Shown: in pieces, positions 13,107-42,439 of the stretch
How the letters are laid out: the number at the start of each line of letters is the position of its first letter
Numbering within the stretch: position 1 is the stretch's first letter
Made by a program: the position numbers and the translations under genes
The notes under the pieces: model-generated
The model's database searches: none
What the model was told of the DNA's origin: nothing
What the model saw: the letters and a program-made list of their open reading frames with translations, nothing else
From: Strigamia acuminata
Taxonomy: Eukaryota > Arthropoda > Chilopoda > Geophilomorpha > Linotaeniidae
DNA length: 64,000 nt
Reading direction: 5' to 3'
NCBI GenBank assembly: GCA_949358305.1
Contig: OX442322.1
Coordinates: 6,758,001 to 6,822,000 of the forward strand

Positions 13107-13584
13107 TGTTGGGTTGCAAACCCATTTTGAAGTGCTTAAATATTTGTTCCTGTGTTACGTGTTTTATTGGTTACACAATTTCCGAGTATGTGTAACAAGT
13201 GTGTTGTAAATTAATGTCCCGATCCAGTGTTCAACCGATAATGATTTTTATCAATGCTTGTTATGTACCGCGGTTGAATATTCTCTCCTTTACAGCACAC
13301 GTCCCTGATGTCGTCTGCTTGAAAAAGCGATTTGTGTTTTATCCTTTTTCCTTGGTTTATCGATTATTAATGTCGGTGTTTTTTACTTGCGATTGTAAAG
13401 GACAAATCATTGGAAACTTGACAATGATTTATCCTATGTTGTTAGAGAGTGCAAATAGCCTCTAACCGTGTATCCCCTGATATTCTCACGAATTAAAGAT
13501 GGCGCACGCATGTCGGTTTCGCGCACCGTTTCAACTGATGTTTCTTTTGATTTCGTTTGCAGAATTGCCGGGAATAACCCCACA
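13107..13584 (+). repeat. Copia-A 5' LTR
   Basis: 478 bp, TGTTGGG to CCCCACA. Contains the hairpin-forming pair GGACAAATCATTGG / CAATGATTTATCC, which has a counterpart in the LTR of element N, and AGATGGCGC at 13497-13505. Confidence 0.96.
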
Positions 13585-13586
13585 AG

Positions 13587-13597
13587 TGGTAGCAGAG
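13587..13597 (+). promoter_or_regulatory. Copia-A primer-binding site
   Basis: TGGTAGCAGAG two bases after the LTR is complementary to the 3' end of initiator tRNA-Met (CTCTGCTACCA). Confidence 0.85.
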
Positions 13598-14770
13598 GCT
13601 GTGCGACGATAAGGCCAGCAGTTTTTGGGAGTTTTCCGGAACATTTCGAGACGAAACGAGTGCAGGACGTCGGCCGAGGTCGTTGCAGACACGAATCGCC
13701 GGCGACGTGCGAAATAACTTCGCCAACTTTTTCAAATCGTCGGGATTGTGTGTGCGGACAGTACAACGGACTATTACGACAGTAAGCAGTGTCGAAATAT
13801 TTATTTTCAGTGCGAAATAAGCACTTTTCCACGCCGTTACGAAGCAAATTTTCTTCGGCGGCCATTTTGGATTCGGCAGTGCAGCCGACGTAGCAACGAC
13901 GTGTTTTCGGGCCGATACACGCCTAGACGCCAGCTTTTTGCCGAGACGACGATTATTCTCGCCGAAACAACGAGAATCAACGTCGATACGACGCATTTTC
14001 GCCCCGAATCAGGCGAAAATTACCGAAAACGATCGGAAATCAGCAGTGGATCGCCGGTGGAGAACAAATCCTCACCAGCGGCCATTTTTGTTTGGATTTT
14101 CATCGCCGTCGACGGTGGAAACCAATTTCGAGTGTCTCTGTACGCATAAGTCTGCGTACACGACAATATTTGACCGGAAAAGCCGTGTTTTGCACCCCGG
14201 AGTGCTACACGAAGGCGCGGACGGGCGCGACGACGATTTTGGATCGTTTTTCCCCGCTTTGCACGGATGTGTGCGAGCGGTAGCGCGTCAGCCCCATTTC
14301 CGCGCACCGATAACGTCTAAACAACGTTCTACGCTGGACGGAAGCGATTGCGACGATCGGATCCCGCAATCCGCCCATCTTAACAACGCAAAAGTGTATT
14401 TACCATTTTGTCGTGAAACTTTGTTAATTTTAAGTTTTTGTTTTTGGTCCCCTCTTAGTATCGGTGCCACCCTACGTCCAGTCGGGCACGTGGCACTGTA
14501 TTCTTGTCTGGGCTTGTTCACGGCCACCCAACCGATCCCGCGACCCTAGGAGGTCGGACGGAAGAGTTGGGGAACGACCAGTCAAGGTTTGATCGCCGCT
14601 CTTATAGCGGTTTGCCCACGGGTGGAATTGTTTTTTCGCCTTCATTTTTGGTGGGTGACAAGTGTGCACTGTGTGATTTGATTCTAGTGAAGTGTTTTGT
14701 GCGGAATAATTTCCGAATTTAGTGATTTTTTCGTGCATCCTTCATTATTATTGTGCATTGTGTCGTCGTG
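13598..14770 (+). other. Copia-A leader (noncoding)
   Basis: About 1.2 kb, CG-rich for this window. No coherent long ORF in frame with gag-pol. The segment near 14408 (TTGTCGTGAAACTTTGTTAA) and the block to about 14660 have close counterparts in the N leader (about 38555-38810), which shows common ancestry. Confidence 0.7.
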
Positions 14771-17700
14771 ATGTCAAAACACGACGACTATAAGGATATT
14801 AAAAAACTCGACGGTACGAACTATGCTACGTGGTCGGTGCAGGTTCAGCTGCTCCTCAAATACAACGGTGTTTGGGGCCACGTGGATGGTACGGAGAAAG
14901 AACCGCCTGACACCGCCACAGCAAAGGAGAAAAGGGACTTCAAAGTCCGAGAGGACAAAGCCATGTCAACCCTTTGCATGAGTTGCGCGGAACCTCAGCA
15001 AGTCATTGCCGTCTCTTGTCCCACTGCTGCAAAAGTCTGGGAAGCGTTAAAAGACGCTTATCAACCGACGACGAGGGCACGCCGCGCTCGACTGCGCCGT
15101 GACTTTTTGAACATGAAAATGTTAGAAGGCGAGGAAATGCTCGTTTTCACGGGGCGAGTCGATCGGAAGGTCACGGAATTAAAAGACGTGAAAATCGACG
15201 TCTCCGACGAGTTCCACGCTTTCCAGTATTTGGACCACTTACCCCCACAATATGAGAACATTAAACAGACAGCGTATCATTGGGAAGATGCTGAGTTCAC
15301 GGCTAAAAACGTGAAAGAGAGGTTGCTTGGCGAATACAATCGCCTTTACGAATCAAGCAACGAATTCGGTGTCCTAACTCAACAAATGGACAATACTGCA
15401 TTGTTTGCCAAGCAAAAATGGAAACCACGTGGGAAACCTTCAACAGCTACTGGGCCCTCACGGGGCACTTGTTTTAATTGTGGAGGGACGGGTCACTTCG
15501 CTAGAGAGTGCCCGTCGCCTCCAAAACAGCAAGGAGCTTTTGGGACTTTTCCTGCCGCTGCTGGTTCGCCGGCCCAATTAAATCGAGGAAGTGGACGTGG
15601 CAGGGGCCGTGGAAAAGGGCAACAGAGAGCAAATCTCACACAGCTGGACCCGTATGCGGATGAGCCCCACACTTTATACTCGGCAGTATTGGAGGAAAAA
15701 CCTGCACAGCCATTATCCCTTGTGTCGCACGGCAATTGTGATTCTCAATGGTACGTGGACACAGGGGCGACCGACCATTTCTCTTTCAACCGGAGTTGGT
15801 TCTCGGACTTTAGACCGCTGTCTAACTTCAGCGTACAACAAGGTGAAGGCAAATCGAAAATCGAAGGAGTCGGCAATGTTGTCATCACCACGCTTTATGG
15901 AACCCGACATAGGGACATTACTTTGAAGAATGTTTTCTTCGCACCCAATTTTCGGAAGAATCTCATCTCACTTGGACGCACCGATGAGGCTGGGATGTGC
16001 ACATTTGTCAAAAATGGGGAAATGTTTATTTATAAAGATAAGATCGAGGAACCATCGATTACGGCAGTTCGAACTTCGAATAGATTGTATAAAGTTAACT
16101 GTCGTATCGAGGTTGGGAATGTAAACACAGCTGCATTAACTGCGCAACAGAATGCGGCTGCTGTCCTCGACTTGATCAAATCATCTGTAAAGGATGAAAG
16201 ATTTGTGCAACCGTTACTAACCATTTTAGACTATAAGAACGCATTACTAAAAAGTTTGAGTAAGTCGGATAAAGGGACGTCCGCAGCTAATTTGAGTGCG
16301 CAAGTGAGCGAGAAAACGTCAGCGCCTGCGGCGATTAATTTGCCGAAAGCGGGGAATGAGGTTCAGACACCTCCTGTGAATATTCCCCAAGCTAATGCGA
16401 CAGCGAAAGCTAACGGCGGAAACGCCGATGATGTGAAAGTTAGAAACCAGGAGCGGCCCCAAACCATGGACACATGGCATTCGAGGATGGGCCATCTCAA
16501 TGCTAAAGGCATTTCAAAATTAGAAAAGTCTGATGACGTATTTGGAATTAACCTGTCCACTAAGGAATTGTCTACCTGTGACGCATGTGCAACCGCCAAA
16601 AGCACGAGAGCAAGCTTTCCCCCTATAGTTGCGATTTCAACCAAAGGGATTTTAGACATTGTACACATGGATGTCTGGGGGAAATCACAGGGTCCTTCCT
16701 TAGGTGGGGCTAATTACTATTTTATTCTCGTGGACGACTATTCACGGTATATGTGGATAATTATGATGAAAACCAAAGGGGAGGTTTTGGGTCATTTCAA
16801 ACGATGGCTAACTGAAGTGGAAAGAACGACTTCTAAGAAAGTCAAATGTATTAAGACTGATAATGGCGGGGAATTTATTTCTCGGGATTGGGACACTTAC
16901 GCTTCCAAGATAGGATTAAAATGCATTCGAACAAATGCATATTCTCCGGAAATGAATTCCGTGGCTGAAAGGGCCAACCGTACAATTATTAGCGGGGTGA
17001 GGGCTTTGATGCTCGAGAACAGTTTCCCCTATCCCCTTTGGGCTGAATTGGCGACTTCCATCGTCTACTTAAAGAATAGGTTTCCTCACCAGGGGATTGA
17101 AGGCAAAACACCTTACTCGATATTTTTCAATAAGAAACTATCTTTACGACACATTAAATGCATTGGGTCGAAGACTTTTGTTCATGTTCCATCCCAGACT
17201 CGCAAAAGCAAATTGGAGGGTAGGGCATGGGCAGGAGCATTGGTTGGCTATGCCATCTCCACTAGGGGCTATAGGATCTGGGACCCTAAAACAAATCAAG
17301 TTTTTGCGTCAAAACACGTGCGGATCTTCGAGGACTCGTATTGGTACGAGATTGGGAAGAGATTACAGACTCCAGTTCGACAACCTCAAGGGGGATCCGA
17401 AGAATTTAAGAGTTTTGGCTACTCTTCCTCCGACACCGAGGAAGATGACGATGATTCCGTTGTCCCTGTTGGACAGCCACCACCCTTTATGCCACCTCCT
17501 ATCCCACCGCCCATTCCGCCCCCTATTCCACCTAGAACCCCAGGACCTGCTTTGAGACCAAATGTGCAGCGGACAATTGAGTTGCCTGCAATTGGAGTTG
17601 ATCCTATTGGGGATGATGAGGAAATTGGTGGGGCGCAGGGTATTGATGGAGATAATCCAGTTGAAGAAATTGGTGGGGCGAAGGGGGATGATGAAAATTT

Positions 17701-19597
17701 CTTAAACGTTTATCCTGACGACGATGAGGATCCAGATCTGGCACCCCCTCCTGGGGTACAAACTCGTCGTGGTTCGGGTAAAAAGGGAAAGGTGAAAGAG
17801 AAAGAAACCCCAGACCCAATGTTATTGCCGCTGGATATGACGAAATGGAGGAGAATCCAGTCTGTCCGGAAAGCCGGGGCAACGGCTGGAAAAGTTGACG
17901 TTGTTTATTTCTCGCCCAATGATGACAAACTTAGAAGTCGAACTGATGTTGCACGGTGGTGCGATGGAGAAGGTTACGCATACGATCCGAACCTTTTCGA
18001 CTTCAAAACGTTAGAAGGGGAGGAACCCTTACCTTTTGCGGGGTTTTGTGCAATTGAGCCCGACACCTACGAGGAGGCGATCGAGGGCATTAACAAACCC
18101 TACTGGGAAGGGGCGATGAAGGACGAGATTGACATTTTTGATGAACGAGAAGTCTATCGTGAAATTGACAAGCCTAAAGACGTACAGCTTTTGGGGACAA
18201 AATGGATATATAAGATGAAACGCGATCACACCGGAGCAATTCAACGCTACCGGGCCCGATTGGTGGCCCAAGGGTTTAAACAGAGGCCTGGAATTGACTT
18301 TACGGAGGTATTTTCCCCCGTTGTCAATTTCGTCCTCGTTATCGTGTTCTTCTGCACTCTGGTAGTGCTTAAGGGCTGGCGTGACGTGCACATCGATATT
18401 AAGGCCGCCTACCTCTATGGCGACCTCGATACAGTGCAATATTGTGAAGTCCCCAAGGGTTACAGGACAGCGAAAAACCGACATAAGTGTTGGATGCTGC
18501 TGAAGGCCTTATATGGCCTTCATCAGAGCGGACGAATGTGGTACCAAGCGCTCCACGATTGTCTGCTCCAATTGGGATTTGAGCCAATGCTAGGACTGAA
18601 CTGTGTCTATTCTCTGGACAACGAAGCAGTAATCATTTTCTACGTCGACGATATCGTACTCTTTTCAAGAGACGATTACGTCGAAAAATGCGTCCTGAAA
18701 TGGATTCGCGGTTTCTTCGACATTGTTGATTTGGGTCCGGTGACCCTATTGTTGGGCATCGAATTCGACAGATCCGGGGGGCGAATCCGTATTCACCAGA
18801 GAAAGTACATAGAAAAGCTGTGTAAGATGTATGGAGTGGATCCGTGTCACCGTGTGCGAGTGCCAGTGACCCCTGGCACAATGATCCAGCAAGTTAAAGA
18901 GGGTGAACGGGTGAACACGGTATTTCCGTACAGGAACTTGGTCGGGAGTCTCCTTTTTATTGCGAGCAGGACTAGGCCTGATATCCTCTTTTCGGTTATA
19001 GTCCTCTCGCAATACAATGAAAAACATTCGGCGCGTCATGTTGGAATGCTGATGCAGGTATTGCGATATTTAGGGAACACACCAAACTATGCCATCGATT
19101 TATCGAATTGCAGGAATGATTCCCTTACTGTCTACACTGACGCGTCTTTCGCCCTAGACCAAGACAAGAGAAGAAGCTTTGGGGGCCATATAGTGTACCT
19201 AGGGGGGGTTCCAATCTCATGGAACTGCCATAAGCAGACAATGACCTCCCTGTCGATCATGGAGAGTGAATTTCTGGCCGTGGTCGATGGGGTGAAGGAT
19301 ATTATATGGCTTCACCGACTGTACGACGCAGACATTATGTTTTGTGTCGAACGCGCAACCCCGTGCGTATATGCCGACAGTATGCCGGCGATTCAGTATA
19401 CGAAAAATAGAATAGAAAACCGCGCTAATAAACATATAGATGTCAAACTGCATTTCGTCCGTGACTGGTTCGAAAAAGGAACGTTTTCTATTAGACACAT
19501 TGCCGGGGTTCTGAACGTGGCAGATATTTTAACCAAATGGTTAGCGAAACCAAGGTTAAACACTCTTTGCGAACACATTTTTGTTATGGACAAATAG
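14771..19597 (+). CDS. gag-pol: Copia-A gag-pol polyprotein, intact
   Basis: 1608 residues in one frame. I chose ATG 14771 (MSKHDDYK); an in-frame GTG upstream is unlikely. Order: UBN2/copia-type gag (about 1-200, LDGTNYATWSVQVQ), CCHC knuckle CFNCGGTGHFAREC (about 235), protease WYVDTGATDHF (about 325), GAG-pre-integrase with CDACATAK, integrase core with all three acids (HMDVWG, TDNGGEF, ERANRTI, about 630-740), an acidic and Pro-rich linker, RT with FYVDDIVLFS (about 1290), and RNase H with DASFALDQDKRR and HIDVKLHFVRDW at the C-terminus. PR-IN-RT-RH is the Ty1/Copia order. All motifs are present and there is no internal stop. It could supply RT and integrase to the related non-autonomous elements N and T. 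Confidence 0.95.
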   Translation: MSKHDDYKDIKKLDGTNYATWSVQVQLLLKYNGVWGHVDGTEKEPPDTATAKEKRDFKVREDKAMSTLCMSCAEPQQVIAVSCPTAAKVWEALKDAYQPTTRARRARLRRDFLNMKMLEGEEMLVFTGRVDRKVTELKDVKIDVSDEFHAFQYLDHLPPQYENIKQTAYHWEDAEFTAKNVKERLLGEYNRLYESSNEFGVLTQQMDNTALFAKQKWKPRGKPSTATGPSRGTCFNCGGTGHFARECPSPPKQQGAFGTFPAAAGSPAQLNRGSGRGRGRGKGQQRANLTQLDPYADEPHTLYSAVLEEKPAQPLSLVSHGNCDSQWYVDTGATDHFSFNRSWFSDFRPLSNFSVQQGEGKSKIEGVGNVVITTLYGTRHRDITLKNVFFAPNFRKNLISLGRTDEAGMCTFVKNGEMFIYKDKIEEPSITAVRTSNRLYKVNCRIEVGNVNTAALTAQQNAAAVLDLIKSSVKDERFVQPLLTILDYKNALLKSLSKSDKGTSAANLSAQVSEKTSAPAAINLPKAGNEVQTPPVNIPQANATAKANGGNADDVKVRNQERPQTMDTWHSRMGHLNAKGISKLEKSDDVFGINLSTKELSTCDACATAKSTRASFPPIVAISTKGILDIVHMDVWGKSQGPSLGGANYYFILVDDYSRYMWIIMMKTKGEVLGHFKRWLTEVERTTSKKVKCIKTDNGGEFISRDWDTYASKIGLKCIRTNAYSPEMNSVAERANRTIISGVRALMLENSFPYPLWAELATSIVYLKNRFPHQGIEGKTPYSIFFNKKLSLRHIKCIGSKTFVHVPSQTRKSKLEGRAWAGALVGYAISTRGYRIWDPKTNQVFASKHVRIFEDSYWYEIGKRLQTPVRQPQGGSEEFKSFGYSSSDTEEDDDDSVVPVGQPPPFMPPPIPPPIPPPIPPRTPGPALRPNVQRTIELPAIGVDPIGDDEEIGGAQGIDGDNPVEEIGGAKGDDENFLNVYPDDDEDPDLAPPPGVQTRRGSGKKGKVKEKETPDPMLLPLDMTKWRRIQSVRKAGATAGKVDVVYFSPNDDKLRSRTDVARWCDGEGYAYDPNLFDFKTLEGEEPLPFAGFCAIEPDTYEEAIEGINKPYWEGAMKDEIDIFDEREVYREIDKPKDVQLLGTKWIYKMKRDHTGAIQRYRARLVAQGFKQRPGIDFTEVFSPVVNFVLVIVFFCTLVVLKGWRDVHIDIKAAYLYGDLDTVQYCEVPKGYRTAKNRHKCWMLLKALYGLHQSGRMWYQALHDCLLQLGFEPMLGLNCVYSLDNEAVIIFYVDDIVLFSRDDYVEKCVLKWIRGFFDIVDLGPVTLLLGIEFDRSGGRIRIHQRKYIEKLCKMYGVDPCHRVRVPVTPGTMIQQVKEGERVNTVFPYRNLVGSLLFIASRTRPDILFSVIVLSQYNEKHSARHVGMLMQVLRYLGNTPNYAIDLSNCRNDSLTVYTDASFALDQDKRRSFGGHIVYLGGVPISWNCHKQTMTSLSIMESEFLAVVDGVKDIIWLHRLYDADIMFCVERATPCVYADSMPAIQYTKNRIENRANKHIDVKLHFVRDWFEKGTFSIRHIAGVLNVADILTKWLAKPRLNTLCEHIFVMDK

Positions 19598-19604
19598 TTT
19601 AAGC

Positions 19605-19615
19605 AAAGGGGGATT
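19605..19615 (+). promoter_or_regulatory. Copia-A polypurine tract
   Basis: AAAGGGGGATT directly abuts the 3' LTR, as required for plus-strand priming. Confidence 0.85.
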
Positions 19616-20093
19616 TGTTGGGTTGCAAACCCATTTTGAAGTGCTTAAATATTTGTTCCTGTGTTACGTGTTTTATTGGTTACACAATTTCCGAGTATGT
19701 GTAACAAGTGTGTTGTAAATTAATGTCCCGATCCAGTGTTCAACCGATAATGATTTTTATCAATGCTTGTTATGTACCGCGGTTGAATATTCTCTCCTTT
19801 ACAGCACACGTCCCTGATGTCGTCTGCTTGAAAAAGCGATTTGTGTTTTATCCTTTTTCCTTGGTTTATCGATTATTAATGTCGGTGTTTTTTACTTGCG
19901 ATTGTAAAGGACAAATCATTGGAAACTTGACAATGATTTATCCTATGTTGTTAGAGAGTGCAAATAGCCTCTAACCGTGTATCCCCTGATATTCTCACGA
20001 ATTAAAGATGGCGCACGCATGTCGGTTTCGCGCACCGTTTCAACTGATGTTTCTTTTGATTTCGTTTGCAGAATTGCCGGGAATAACCCCACA
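19616..20093 (+). repeat. Copia-A 3' LTR
   Basis: 478 bp, identical by eye to 13107-13584. Followed by the second GGGAC duplication. Confidence 0.96.
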
Positions 20094-36517: not shown

Positions 36518-36904
36518 CTCCGAAATTTTTGCGTCAATTATTATGATGTTATTCTTTTTCCATCTTCTCTTCTTCTTCTTACTTCTATTTGGATGGTAAC
36601 AGTTTCTCTGTGACCGTTCAGCTAGTTTTCCATCTGTTGTTGCGTGTTGACCCGAATTGGATTAGGAGGTCCTGGATTTTGAGGTCCTTCTCTTCTCCTT
36701 CTCCGTGGTCTCCAAGCATTACTACCTCTATCTTGCTGGTAACTCGGTGGATTATAGAATTCGCAACTAAAATGATGATAGCATCCGCACGAACGAGTAT
36801 TATTATTACTACTATTGTTGTTATTATTAGTATTGTAATTTTGCCTACCACCTCTGTTACTACCTCTTTGAAAGTTCTGGTTTTGAAAATTCTGACCTCC
36901 TTGT
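36518..36904 (-). pseudogene. gag: Gypsy-C copy 2, gag 3' part and gag-pol junction
   Basis: Minus-strand gag tail with the Asn-rich segment, the Cys/His cluster CGCYHHFSC and the basic WRPRRRR region, ending at a TAG near 36620. The pol frame begins below it. It is joined to its 5' part (42440-43214) across element N. CTTGT (36900-36904) is the left duplication of N. Confidence 0.8.
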
Positions 36905-37273
36905 TGTTGGTATTTGGAGCAGACATATGGTCACAGCCAGTTAATCTTGCGTGTTTCGGCTCATGTAGCGCGGTGATCGATTGTTGAGTCGTCTGCTCGA
37001 AAGAGCTTATTGTTTAGTCTGTTTTGGTGTGTTATCACTTGATAATACATGGTTTTATCTTTATTTATGTAAAGGACAAATCAATGATGGTTATCCATTG
37101 ATTTGTTCTCTTTTGTTATGTATTTGACTTGAGGAGAACAAATCTCAAGTCATGACACTTGTTTTTATGATTTGGTCGAATAAAATGGCTGCCGACGGTT
37201 TGTCAGCAATGTCAGCACATTTTAACTATGGCTGCATTTTTCCAACTCACTACACATATAGTAAATCCCAATA
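36905..37273 (+). repeat. Element N 5' LTR
   Basis: 369 bp. Carries two strong hairpins: CAAATCAATG / CATTGATTTG near 37078 and ACTTGAG / CTCAAGT near 37128. The first resembles the hairpin of the Copia-A LTR. Confidence 0.93.
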
Positions 37274-37274
37274 A

Positions 37275-37285
37275 TGGTAGCAGAG
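37275..37285 (+). promoter_or_regulatory. Element N primer-binding site
   Basis: TGGTAGCAGAG one base after the LTR; initiator tRNA-Met 3' end, as in Copia-A. Confidence 0.85.
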
Positions 37286-38961
37286 AATGGTTTACAACGT
37301 TAGGACAACGTTGTAACAACTTCTATTGGGTCGGCAGTGAGTAGGAAGTCGTTTCACTTCATTTTCGCGAAGTTGCGAAAAGCACGGGAAATCCCGGACG
37401 CACGGGCCGAAGCGGGGACGCCTTCTTGGGCATCGAGCGACGACGATCTCCCGTCGATACGATAAAAGTGAATTTGGACGAAGTTTTCGTGGATTTGAAC
37501 GTCGAACAACGAGGGAAAGCGTAAAACGACAGTAGGAACTGATATTGTTAGTTTTTCAATTTATTTTCGGTGCATTTCAAGCAAAATGACGGCATCACGT
37601 GCTTCTCCTTCGCACATTTCCAAGATGGCGGCGCCCATCGTGAATCGAGCTGGCTGTTGATTTCGGACGATTTTCGTTATTTGTGAGCGGTTTCAGCGCT
37701 GGAAATACGACGCTGGAACACATAAACGTCCAAGGAAACACAGAAGCCTGGTTTGGAATTTATTTTTCGACGGAATTTTGCGAAAACAACGTTTTTCGGC
37801 GGCGACGAGTGCGAACATAGTTCGCCAACGTTTCAAAGTACGACGCACGTTTTAAATACGTGCCCACCGAATCTGGTGACGTTCGGAAAACGTTTTTCGG
37901 TGGATGGAGAAGATTTTCGTGTCCGGGACACGACAAACGAGCGGTTTGGGCCGGTTTTCCAGCGATTTTAGAGCGACGAGACACGCCACGAACGAGCAGC
38001 GTCGGATTCGACGATAAAGCGTCGAAATTCATCGAGATTCGAGCGGAATTCGACTGTGGAATCGTGTAGGAACACGATAGGATTGCCTAGAGACCGTATG
38101 AACATTTATTTAGTCGATTTATTATTAAATTGCATTGTATTTTTGCCGAGATGTGCGGGGCAGCCAAATCCAGGATGGCGCCGCACGTGTGAACACGGAA
38201 AAGCGAGGAGAATCGTTTGCAACACGCCGTTGGAATATATCCACGCTGGATTTTGTCGATTGGACGATCTACGAGGTTACAACAAACGTTTCAGCGACGT
38301 TTAGGATTATTTCGAGGACATTGCGATTTTTGGCGAGCGTTTTGGCGCACGCGGCGTGCGAATTGAAATTCGCCGATCACGGATTAGCCCGGGACGGGTA
38401 TCTGTGCAACGGAGGGACAGGTTAAGTCTTGTGCCAGGTGCACGAGTGAATTGCATCGGATTCAAGCGACGTTTCAGCGACGTCAACGCGGGATTTGCGA
38501 CGCAAAAATCCCGCAAGAAGACAACTTGCCAGCAAAGTGTTTATTTTTATTTCTGGGTTGTCGTGAAACTTTGTATAGTTTATAAGTTTTTGTTTTGGGG
38601 TCCCTTTGTTTGTTTTCCGCCCTTTACGCAGTCGCGTAGCGGAATCCTATTTCCACACAGGCTTTCCCTGGCCACCGAGTGTCCCGCGGTCCTAAGAGTC
38701 CGGTCGGAACTCGGGGGATACTGTGTGGAGTTTTGCATCTCACTTAGTGAGATTAGTCCCAGGGCAGAGTGTATTTTCGCCTTATTTTTGGAGGAAAAAT
38801 TAGTGTTTTTTTTGTGTTTTCTCAGAGTGGAAAAGTGTTTCTAGTGAAAATGCTGCAATTAATTTGTGAAAATGTGTTTTGTGCCATCACTAAATTTATT
38901 AGTGAGTTTGGTGTGGTCGTGTGGTGCAAGTTTTGTGCACACAGTGTTTTGTGCGACAAGA
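37286..38961 (+). other. Element N leader (noncoding)
   Basis: About 1.7 kb with no coherent ORF. It holds AAGATGGCGGCGCC near 37622. A 3' block (about 38555-38810: GTCGTGAAACTTTG, then GGTCC, GGCCACC and TTTTCGCCTTATTTTTGG) is clearly homologous to the Copia-A leader. Several ATGs precede the main start. Confidence 0.7.
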
Positions 38962-41880
38962 ATGTCTGTAACAGACAGTGTGAAGGCCTGCAACAAACAA
39001 ACAATGGATGGTACACACGTGGCTCAATTGAAGACGGAAACACACGAACAAAGTGTCCCTAACGAACAAACAGTGTTCAACACACTTAATGAACAATTGC
39101 AGAAGAAAATTAGTGTTCTTGGAAAAAAAAAATTTGATTTGTGTTTTGATTTTGACAAAAGTATATTGTTACTAACCCATTTAGTTTGTAAGAGCGCACT
39201 AACAGAAAACATTGATGTTATGGCAGGGGCCATTAGTGATCTAGTTTTGACACTTTGTGCAATGCATATGCATGTGAGGGAAACAAATGGGGTTAGCAAT
39301 AGCAAAGTGCGGGGCACTAGTAACATAAATCAGGACAATTGGGTGGTTGATTCAAATGGGATTTTGAATGCCATGAATGATGTGCAAAACATCAAATCCC
39401 AACATGGACACAGGGATTTAGAATTTTTGAACGAGGTTCAAAGGAAAGCTAGCCATGGAAATAAGAAATTGAATTTCACCACAGTTAAATGTGGTAACCC
39501 TCTTAGTTCTGTCAAAACAAAGAAAGAATTTAGGCCTAGATTGACAGGAACAGATTATCCGAACCAGGTTCGGAATAAAAGGAACGAGGGGGACATAGTT
39601 AATCAAATTAACTTTTTAGATTCTGGTAAACAGAAAGAACAAAGGGTTTTTGTAAAAACCGGGAAAAAGAATTCCTCTTCTTTATACCATGGCAGGAAAT
39701 TGATCAGTTTAGACAAGGGATGTTTAAATAATAAAGAATTGGACTGTGCGACCACAGTTAAAGGTGGTGACCCCCATAATGACAATAGTCGTGACAATGC
39801 AAATATATTTGCAAAAATGGAATTTTTGAACCGGGTTCAAAATAGAAAGAGAGAGGGGGATCCACAAAAGAGTAATCTTTTGAGAGAGATTTCAGGGAAA
39901 TCTAAAAGGGGTTTGAGCAACCAAAAGTCAAGTATAACAACAGGAATCAGACAGAATAGTTCCTTGAATTCTGGTATAAAAAACCAGAAAAAGAATTCTA
40001 GAAATAGAAATGTTCCAAAACAAGAAAAGTTTGAAAAGGACCGGGTCCTCCCATTAGAATTGTGGCATACCCGGATGGGGTATTTAAATAAAGACAGTGT
40101 TCTTAACATGAATGGGTCTAGAAACGTGTTTGGTGTCCGATTAGAAGACACGGGGACCGCCCCTATAACAGGGAACTTTTCAAATACAGGTATTTGCCCG
40201 ACACAAAGGATTAATGACATGAAAGCTTTAGAAGTTGTACATTTGAGTGTCTGGAGGGCCCCAACTAGGGAAAAATATGTCATTATAATTGATGATTGTT
40301 CTGAGTATGCATGGTTCAGACCATTAAAGGAAAACAGCATTTTAGTGCAATTTCGGAATTGGTTAGCTGAAATCAAATGCTTAACAGGAAGTGTGAATAA
40401 AGTTCATTTGGGCCCTGGAATGGAATTTTCCACAGAAGAATTAGCGACTTGGGTGGAAGTAATGGAGAATTTGGGAATTACAATTAATGGTGTAGATTCT
40501 GATAACCCAATGGCTGACTCCATCTCCGAGAGGGCTAATGCAGATATTGTAAATGGGGTGGAAAGTTTGATGGTAGAAAATAAATTCCCCAGTAATTTGT
40601 GGTTGGAGCTGGCCAACACAATGGTCTATTTAAGGAATAGAGCCCCCAGGATTAATTTAGACTGGAAAACCCCATACAACGTATTGTATGACCGATGTGT
40701 ATCGGTACGGCATCTCAGATGCGTGGGGTCTAGAGTTAAAGTTGCCCACATTAATGATGGGAAAAGATATTTCTGGATGGGTGCTCTAATCGGGTATTCT
40801 AATTCACGAAGGAAATACCGAGTCTGGGACCCAGTAAAAAACAGAATTTTCCAAGTTTCTCGAAACAATATGAAGTTTTCTGAGTGGACTTATTGGCACG
40901 AGGGGGAAGTTAAACCCTCTCTGGAATTCTCCAATAAAGATGAAACTTTAGATGTGAGAGCTGAAATTCCATCGAAGGTTGAGGTGCCAATATCCCCTCA
41001 TCAGGAAGTCCCCTCAACATTAGACTTGTTGAATAAGTGTGAAATTACTGAAAATGAGGGGAAAAATTTAGAGATGATTGAATCAAACCAGCGTGATCCT
41101 TTGACGACACAGGTTGATTTTAGCAACGGAGAACAGAATTGTAGCAATGAAGAGATTAATTCGCCATTGCGAATTCCCCCAAGTCCAATAACTTATTTGG
41201 TTGATTCAAACATAAGTGGGACCATCAACACAGAGGGGGAACATTTAGGAACAGTTGAACAGAAACCAAAAGAATTGAAACAACAAGGGAAATTTAGCGA
41301 TAAGGAAAATTGTTTGGCAATAGAATTTCCTCCAGAGTTAACACATGGGATTGACGTGAATAATTCCAAGACTATTGCGAATGAAAGGCAAAAATTGGAA
41401 CAGTTTACATTGGAATTTGAGTCCAAATCAGATGAAGGGTTTAGACAGATCGATTCCGTGAAAATTTGTGATATTTCTTCGAAGTCACTGGAAGATGACA
41501 TTTCCCCAACACCGGTAGAGACACTGATAGGTGTGGGTGAAGATAAAGTCTTTAGGACAGAGGGGGAATGCGGAAAGACTAAAAGACGCAAGAAAAAGTG
41601 TAGGAAATCCAAGAATGTTGTTTTAATGAAAACAAAGGATGATGAATATCGTTTGGCGGTTAATGAACCGATATTGGATAATGAAACAACTAAAAATGTT
41701 ACGTTGATGGAAGCGGATGACATGGAACGTGAATTGATGGCTGGTGAGCCGGATTGTATTAGTTATGTCCTGACCGAAGGGGATGTGAAATTTGAAGAGC
41801 TAAGCGAACGGGACAAACAAACTATAATTGATAAGTTAGGATTCACTTGGGACGAAAACTTCATTTACCCCAAATATTAG
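38962..41880 (+). CDS. Element N ORF, integrase-like protein lacking catalytic residues
   Basis: 972 residues from ATG 38962 (MSVTDSVK). That start was chosen because its MDGTHVA aligns with the Copia-A start region; upstream in-frame ATG 38872 is possible. Residues about 60-350 are Lys/Asn-rich with degenerate repeats (FLNEVQRK / FLNRVQNRK, TTVKCGNP / TTVKGGDP). Residues about 363-560 align with the Copia-A integrase: WHTRMGYLN, then LEVVHLSVW (catalytic Asp replaced by Ser), HLGPGMEF (Asp-Asn replaced by Gly-Pro) and SISERAN (Glu kept). The His/Cys zinc ligands are also mostly lost. The integrase C-terminal part (MGALIGYSNSRRKYRVWDP) is well kept. The C-terminal 300 residues are acidic, with a basic patch KTKRRKKKCRKSK near residue 870. 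No RT. An open frame, a conserved fold and lost chemistry suggest a binding or regulatory role (inference). Confidence 0.8.
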   Translation: MSVTDSVKACNKQTMDGTHVAQLKTETHEQSVPNEQTVFNTLNEQLQKKISVLGKKKFDLCFDFDKSILLLTHLVCKSALTENIDVMAGAISDLVLTLCAMHMHVRETNGVSNSKVRGTSNINQDNWVVDSNGILNAMNDVQNIKSQHGHRDLEFLNEVQRKASHGNKKLNFTTVKCGNPLSSVKTKKEFRPRLTGTDYPNQVRNKRNEGDIVNQINFLDSGKQKEQRVFVKTGKKNSSSLYHGRKLISLDKGCLNNKELDCATTVKGGDPHNDNSRDNANIFAKMEFLNRVQNRKREGDPQKSNLLREISGKSKRGLSNQKSSITTGIRQNSSLNSGIKNQKKNSRNRNVPKQEKFEKDRVLPLELWHTRMGYLNKDSVLNMNGSRNVFGVRLEDTGTAPITGNFSNTGICPTQRINDMKALEVVHLSVWRAPTREKYVIIIDDCSEYAWFRPLKENSILVQFRNWLAEIKCLTGSVNKVHLGPGMEFSTEELATWVEVMENLGITINGVDSDNPMADSISERANADIVNGVESLMVENKFPSNLWLELANTMVYLRNRAPRINLDWKTPYNVLYDRCVSVRHLRCVGSRVKVAHINDGKRYFWMGALIGYSNSRRKYRVWDPVKNRIFQVSRNNMKFSEWTYWHEGEVKPSLEFSNKDETLDVRAEIPSKVEVPISPHQEVPSTLDLLNKCEITENEGKNLEMIESNQRDPLTTQVDFSNGEQNCSNEEINSPLRIPPSPITYLVDSNISGTINTEGEHLGTVEQKPKELKQQGKFSDKENCLAIEFPPELTHGIDVNNSKTIANERQKLEQFTLEFESKSDEGFRQIDSVKICDISSKSLEDDISPTPVETLIGVGEDKVFRTEGECGKTKRRKKKCRKSKNVVLMKTKDDEYRLAVNEPILDNETTKNVTLMEADDMERELMAGEPDCISYVLTEGDVKFEELSERDKQTIIDKLGFTWDENFIYPKY

Positions 41881-42065
41881 AGGGGGAATGAGATTGTACG
41901 TTAATTGAACTGGAGTCTTTAACATCGAGTACGTCTTGGTTAGGAGAGAACAACTTGTAACCCTAGATAAATGTACTTTCGGGGCGCGATTGGAATAATG
42001 CGCAGTGATGGGGTTATAGCGTATTCTTTTGTCCAGTTTGGACCATATGCTGCTCAGAGGGGGTA
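41881..42065 (+). other. Element N 3' noncoding region with polypurine tracts
   Basis: GAGGGGGA begins at the stop codon (41880-41887), and GAGGGGGTA (42057-42065) directly precedes the 3' LTR as the likely functional PPT. Confidence 0.7.
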
Positions 42066-42434
42066 TGTTGGTATTTGGAGCAGACATATGGTCACAGCCA
42101 GTTAATCTTGCGTGTTTCGGCTCATGTAGCGCGGTGATCGATTGTTGAGTCGTCTGCTCGAAAGAGCTTATTGTTTAGTCTGTTTTGGTGTGTTATCACT
42201 TGATAATACATGGTTTTATCTTTATTTATGTAAAGGACAAATCAATGATGGTTATCCATTGATTTGTTCTCTTTTGTTATGTATTTGACTTGAGGAGAAC
42301 AAATCTCAAGTCATGACACTTGTTTTTATGATTTGGTCGAATAAAATGGCTGCCGACGGTTTGTCAGCAATGTCAGCACATTTTAACTATGGCTGCATTT
42401 TTCCAACTCACTACACATATAGTAAATCCCAATA
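42066..42434 (+). repeat. Element N 3' LTR
   Basis: 369 bp, identical by eye to 36905-37273. CTTGT follows. Confidence 0.93.
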
Positions 42435-42439
42435 CTTGT

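Follow-up and report, generated by a model that had tools for sequence, protein, structure and literature searches.

Why should a retrotransposon that has moved recently keep, as its sole coding capacity, a long open reading frame (ORF) for an integrase stripped of two of its three catalytic acids? The question is posed by a Copia-type element on the forward strand at 36905–42434 of a 64,000-nucleotide window (the whole stretch analysed here) from the centipede Strigamia acuminata, positions 6,758,001 to 6,822,000 of contig OX442322.1, which also holds the reverse transcriptase (RT)-bearing element Copia-A (13107–20093). An earlier note, made from the letters of the window, had proposed that selection kept the frame open without catalysis, and that its product guides or interferes with the integrase of a Copia-A-like helper, a role that is plausible on the sequence. 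Here, we report that the element belongs to a diverse clade with integrases dead at the same two sites, in which the integrase-like core is under purifying selection, and we propose, with a probability of roughly one in two, that its members are old, still mobile, helper-dependent Copia satellites whose pseudo-integrase serves the helper integrase or particle as a non-catalytic partner.

Anatomy of the insertion and its reading frame

Long terminal repeats (LTRs) of 369 bp at 36905–37273 and 42066–42434 agree at 369 of 369 bases and are flanked by a CTTGT target-site duplication (36900–36904 and 42435–42439, unstranded). A primer binding site (PBS; TGGTAGCAGAGAATGG, 37275–37290) has one mismatch to the 3′ end of the initiator Met tRNA, and a polypurine tract (PPT; AGAGGGGG, 42056–42063) adjoins the 3′ LTR, bearing out the anatomy given in the earlier note. 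When the element was removed in silico, its flanks rejoined as a gag frame on the minus strand (Gypsy-like, by eye) that was open across the site, with one stop and the same end as the window's other gag copy, indicating a clean and recent insertion. The LTR pair, 5-bp duplication, PBS and PPT are those of a Copia-type LTR retrotransposon and the integrase–RT–RNase H polyprotein is absent; the element is a derivative of such a retrotransposon, not an autonomous member.

The sole long ORF (38962–41880, + strand) was confirmed as fully open over 972 codons, or 1,005 open codons counted stop to stop, the chance of 972 open codons being ~5e-34 at the ORF's own base composition. A Pfam scan of the ORF (E up to 1) matched an SH3-like integrase domain (SH3_retrovirus, above the Pfam cut-off) and nothing else, with no RT, RNase H, protease or Gag domain. 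The pseudo-integrase (40048–40890) comprises a zinc-site remnant, an RNase H-like core and an SH3-like domain. By eye, one of the four zinc ligands is left, so that no HHCC site remains, and in alignment with Copia-A the first catalytic Asp is replaced by Ser (40246–40248) and the second by Gly (40411–40413), with Glu kept at the third position (40528–40530); Ser, Gly and Glu thus stand in place of the D-D-E triad. On the replaced acids, the kept Glu, the lost zinc ligands and the retained C-terminal part, the earlier description of the protein was accurate.

The dead-integrase clade and selection on its core

The same substitutions recur across the genome. When the genome was searched with the 281-residue core, 138 matches were scored, of which 97 lie at 45–100% identity and 41 at ~37–41%, the matched stretch being stop-free in 81 of the former and 40 of the latter; these counts are lower bounds, only the best candidates having been scored, and one element may give two stretches. 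Thirty relatives were fetched, then L044, then four with stops. Every member read at both sites carries Ser and Gly (35/35): 31 of the 32 dead rows of one comparison, and also L044 and L061–L063. The unread row is a fragment, the second stretch of L024, with the first site missing and Gly at the second. The catalytic Glu, correctly reported as kept in the window copy, is less uniform across the family, where 26 of the 31 read members retain it. All 20 live-type integrases have D-D-E, namely 16 cores from the ~37–41% matches (read over the core alone, and including L057, which has a stop) and those of Copia-A, Copia-B, L039 and L040. L064, which appeared to be a D-N-G survivor with a retained catalytic Asp, was rejected, the apparent motif being a deletion junction. 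Outside this genome, a protein search for relatives returned three Copia-like proteins, all with RT, at 25–28% identity, and a scan of viral contigs gave no match.

In a tree of 29 rows, without P0001 and P0002, which the row-picking motif did not match, the 24 dead rows form one side of a branch with support of 100/100 and a long stem (1.6), and their sister is RT-bearing L040 (support 95/82). Among RT-bearing elements it is L040, rather than Copia-A, that stands nearest to the dead rows in this tree. The deepest subfamily (L032–L035 and L044) looks like an intermediate: the ORF of L044 has a CCHC knuckle (E 9.1e-7), its only Gag content, and a Pol_BBD barrel domain (E 2.4e-13), and the subfamily reads DSQ at the position of DTG in Copia-A, which we take to be the protease motif. 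Furthermore, the ORFs of L011, L012, L019, L030 and L038 end after the integrase in a decayed stretch resembling the methyl-CpG-binding domain (MBD) that follows the integrase in RT-bearing Copia elements (Pfam E 0.013 in L011, below cut-off). Together, the intermediate subfamily and the MBD remnants indicate a lineage that shed RT and RNase H together with catalysis and the greater part of Gag; the window subfamily has additionally lost the knuckle and the protease part. The Pfam MBD of the RT-bearing elements lies between integrase and RT, at 17798–18070 in Copia-A (E 4.4e-10), 5764–6036 in L039 (E 8.6e-11) and 2706–2978 in L040 (E 6.5e-7), and we would guess at a targeting role by analogy with the chromodomains of other LTR elements.

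Ten of the 21 inspected elements (the window element, L010, L011, L013, L016, L017, L018, L020, L023 and L027) combine LTR pairs 99.47–100% identical with a 5-bp duplication, and these ten recent insertions have LTRs of several types and differing target duplications. A repeat pair with no convincing duplication was seen in L012, L014, L019 and L024, and no LTR pair lay within the fetched stretch of the remaining seven. Such mobility bears on the possibility that the conservation is that of a host-domesticated gene family, for which GIN2, a host gene that derives from an integrase and has no conserved DDE, is a described precedent (PMC3424704). With ten members inside LTR pairs that have different target duplications, rather than at an immobile locus, we rejected domestication as very unlikely.

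Two further patterns of copies were observed. On contig C7 (352847–370753), four satellite core matches lie 5,693–5,696 bases apart with one TAG each, perhaps a head-to-tail array produced by LTR recombination. Equal core scores were also shared within two sets of matches, four of L013 type (C1, C8, C9 and C69) and eight of L037 type (located on C1, C3, C6, C69 and C128), which suggests recent bursts.

Comparison of the copies, as the earlier note had proposed, gave a median ratio of nonsynonymous to synonymous change (dN/dS) for the core of 0.27 in frame, not near 1, against 0.88 and 1.22 in the shifted frames (248 pairs, dS 0.2–0.8), and core differences among 31 codon-aligned members were distributed.31/.22/.48 over codon positions. 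For the window copy, 30 of 30 core comparisons lay between 0.18 and 0.40. The codon alignment took the core-holding frame of each copy, leaving out N-terminal parts behind frame breaks and L022, whose frame is short. Because the whole clade has Ser and Gly, catalysis had already been lost when this selection operated. For the N-terminal part, dN/dS was 0.62 in frame compared with 0.69 and 0.70, and differences were spread evenly across the three codon positions, so that no constraint on the protein is clear in the N-terminal third; for the tail, the values were 0.58 compared with 0.75 and 0.85. Purifying selection is clear for the integrase-like core only, and the claim that selection kept the ORF without catalysis holds for that core; the N-terminal third looks almost free of constraint at the protein level. 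Upstream of the ATG at 38962, an in-frame ATG at 38872 is also open, and the frame at 38872–38961 is alike in many members (MCFVPSLNLLVS...), reflecting either a longer N-terminus or conservation of the leader.

Could the frame simply be the relic of a decayed Copia copy, left open by luck? Stops in 16 of the 97 closer core matches and N-terminal frame breaks in some copies fit such a relic, and relatives with both D-D-E and RT do exist; it is the whole clade that is dead, however, not a lone copy that decayed from them. The improbability of so long an open frame, the clade-wide Ser and Gly, the core dN/dS and the 81 of 97 stop-free core matches all run counter to chance, and we regard this explanation, to which we give almost no weight, as refuted by the stop-free matches, the dead clade in the tree and the dN/dS values.

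A predicted (rather than solved) structure, built from 26 aligned sequences, returned an integrase-like core and SH3 fold, its modelled strands and helices being consistent with an SH3-like barrel and a core of RNase H-like fold (mean predicted local distance difference test score (pLDDT) 68.6, predicted template modelling score 0.71; pLDDT mostly 70–90 over residues 68–294 and <50 over 1–67). The best PDB matches in Foldseek were retroviral integrases, with 5ejk at E 1.3e-10 and a template modelling (TM) score of 0.40 by query and 0.46 by target; the high root-mean-square deviation of this match (15.8) probably reflects domain placement. Compared with 19 live-type rows, all 24 dead rows show both replacements, Asp-to-Ser and Asp-to-Gly, and the median net charge of the core is −8 in the dead rows and +4 in the live-type rows. 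Residues 188–206 (helix 5), corresponding to the helix that contributes to dimer formation in retroviral integrases, still match the live-type majority at 13 of 19 positions. The six members examined have a basic N-terminal part and an acidic tail, the latter with a basic patch; in the window element, a basic stretch resembling, by eye, a nuclear localisation signal (KTKRRKKKCRKSK, 41575–41613) lies inside the acidic tail. Taken together, these features suggest a protein that may have lost DNA contact at the active site and kept contact with a partner.

Inactive but still in possession of a likely dimer helix, the pseudo-integrase would also make a natural dominant negative, and it could instead poison multimers of the helper integrase or compete for partners, exerting copy-number control for the lineage or the host, much as p22 of Ty1 does with Gag. 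Ty1 is known for encoding its own restriction factors (PMC10951436). Yet an element that blocks its own helper also blocks its own spread, and the ten recent insertions of several LTR types lead us to consider interference rather unlikely.

A shared leader fold and the question of a helper

Upstream of the ORF, at 38612–38753 (+ strand), the leader RNA is predicted to form five helices in common with the leaders of RT-bearing Copia elements. The fold was examined in an alignment of 19 rows, comprising the window leader (38600–38800, 201 nt), 13 window-type and two deep-type leaders, L039, L040 and Copia-A, and it has 37 pairs in which 97.1% of cells pair; the fold was derived from the alignment on which it was scored, a circumstance that biases the scores towards it. 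Changes on both sides were found at 23 pairs and in 104 cells, compared with 15.2 and 28.1 in shuffles (0/500 shuffles reached either), and sliding the partner along the alignment reduced pairing to 27–49%; the number of pair types was not above that of shuffles (38 vs 37.0; 213/500 shuffles). Within the window, the fold model matched this element and Copia-A only. Among the fetched relatives L009–L028 it matched 17 of 20, with L010, L017, L019, L023 and L027 as held-out members, and did not find the fold in L015, L024 and L026; an Rfam scan of 36905–39000 gave no match up to E 0.1. Of the observations made here, it is the occurrence of this fold in satellites as well as in RT-bearing elements that points most strongly to shared machinery, and the fold is a concrete candidate for a signal that directs packaging or translation in these Copia elements.

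The account we favour for these helper-dependent satellites is as follows. An ancestor of the Copia-A/L040 type would have lost both catalytic Asp residues of its integrase along with RT, RNase H and the bulk of Gag, and RT-bearing Copia elements of the L040/Copia-A clade would now supply the particle, RT and active integrase. Satellite RNA would be taken up via the shared leader fold and the PBS, the core of which (TGGTAGCAGAG) is common to the window element, Copia-A, L039 and L040 (L027 deviates), with the PPT also kept as a signal. The pseudo-integrase, still with its predicted fold, its SH3 domain, a likely dimer helix and a basic patch, but with its active site gone and its core acidic, would bind the helper integrase or particle and favour the RNA that encoded it. 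A protein freely shared among copies should be lost by most of them, and so the selected core suggests a benefit to the encoding copy.

Several observations weigh against this account. Having lost its basic charge, the core would seem ill suited to contact LTR ends directly. The dN/dS of the dead core is ~4× that of live-type integrases in the same genome (bin medians 0.05–0.08, with 25 of 120 pairs usable, from the 16 other live-type cores because Copia-A, L039 and L040 were saturated), and its constraint is therefore looser. N-terminal frame breaks occur in several copies, including L010, L016 and L018 with near-identical LTRs, so that a copy may be able to move without an intact protein of its own. 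The PPT core (AGAGGGGG) is common with L040, not with Copia-A or L039 (CAAAGGGGG), and the LTR ends are alike without being identical, reading TGTTGG..CCAATA in the window element, TGTTGG..CCCACA in Copia-A, TGTTAG..TCAATA in L039 and TATTGG..CCCATTA in L040 (set by eye). Finally, the frame of L040 is split in two, so that L040 is at most a candidate for the helper; a closer helper than Copia-A, L039 and L040 may exist.

The ORF also contains internal copies of a polypurine motif (GAGGGGGA), all on the + strand, at 39586–39593 (in frame, reading Glu-Gly-Asp), 39853–39860, 40900–40907, 41233–41240 and 41560–41567, and a further copy at 41880–41887 overlaps the end of the stop codon. Site by site, the motif is retained in 17/19, 10/12, 5/30, 29/31, 22/28, 14/24 and 24/24 of the members with letters there, the third and fifth sites being those at which the window copy lacks it. 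Counting both strands, the window holds ten occurrences of GAGGGGG(A/T) compared with 2.06 expected, and seven of the ten lie inside this element. Across the family, 30 of 31 frames have 1–7 copies of GAGGGGGW (L022 has none; the median over 31 is 4), with all sense copies in one reading phase and antisense copies only in L026 (3), compared with no sense copies in the ORFs of Copia-A and L039 and one in each of the two frames of L040. The spelling GAGGGG is used for 139 of 226 Glu-Gly pairs, where 29.3 would be expected, and for 3 of 23 in live ORFs, counts that come from related copies and so are not independent; synonymous-codon shuffles matched the observed counts in 0–6 of 2000 (ten frames). 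At six motif sites, in columns picked for holding the motif and among related copies, Glu codons were identical in 1338/1338 comparisons (10189/13117 elsewhere) and Gly codons in 1275/1462 (5470/8664 elsewhere). Part of the ORF thus appears to be under nucleotide-level selection. Central polypurine tracts exist in some retroviruses and Ty1, and by this analogy the simplest reading is that the internal motifs would act as extra plus-strand primers, with G-rich RNA-binding sites as the alternative; the in-frame copies provide a natural test of multi-site plus-strand priming.

Pressed further, such patterns could mean that the ORF matters mainly as RNA or DNA, a spacer with extra polypurine tracts (plus-strand primers or G-rich protein sites) whose protein is a by-product. 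The frequency of the motif, its single phase, the GAGGGG bias and the invariant Glu codons support a nucleic-acid role, which the near-neutral N-terminal part also fits, but a purely nucleic role does not predict protein-level selection on the core, with its.31/.22/.48 distribution and dN/dS of 0.27, and we judge it quite improbable. It is possible, though less likely than not, that the nucleic-acid and protein features are parts of one new LTR life style, in which the pseudo-integrase would be a cis-acting acidic partner that seizes the helper integration complex, coupled to multi-site plus-strand synthesis from internal polypurine tracts and a helper-type leader for packaging, with a protease-like DSQ domain also encoded in the deepest subfamily.

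Comparison with known systems

The RT-bearing Copia elements of this genome (Copia-A, L039 and L040) share with the window element the PBS core, the leader fold and an integrase with an SH3 domain, and differ in having Gag, a protease-type domain, a D-D-E integrase, RT (in two frames in L040) and 0–2 copies of GAGGGGGW. Among non-autonomous LTR elements, TRIM and LARD are defined by having no coding capacity, unlike the window element with its ORF core under selection. TR-GAG elements have one coding domain, as here, but that domain is Gag in them and integrase in ours, and the lack of a Gag domain places the window element outside both the TR-GAG and the Quinta-like types. LTR satellites are usually described as non-coding or Gag-only, and among the matches listed in the open-licence PMC literature there was no dead-integrase LTR satellite. 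A diverse, recently mobile clade with nothing but a dead integrase suggests that integrase can be worth keeping beyond catalysis, and constitutes a natural sequence collection in which the integrase surfaces used for partner binding might be told apart from those used for chemistry.

Resemblances to other systems are partial. GIN2 is likewise integrase-derived and has no conserved DDE, but comprises host genes and keeps the HHCC zinc finger that is mostly lost in the window element (PMC3424704). Ty1 p22/p18 and DRT2 are, like the pseudo-integrase, element-derived non-enzymatic proteins that may act on a related element, and differ in being capsid-derived with a reported role in restriction (PMC10951436). 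The nearest design in the literature we found is the wheat pair RLG_Quinta and RLG_Cereba, in which the former is a Gag-only non-autonomous partner of the latter (PMC11302176). Like the window element, RLG_Quinta is a non-autonomous LTR element with a kept ORF and cis signals common with its autonomous partner; it encodes Gag and an unknown domain and no integrase, whereas the centipede element keeps a dead integrase only (PMC11302176).

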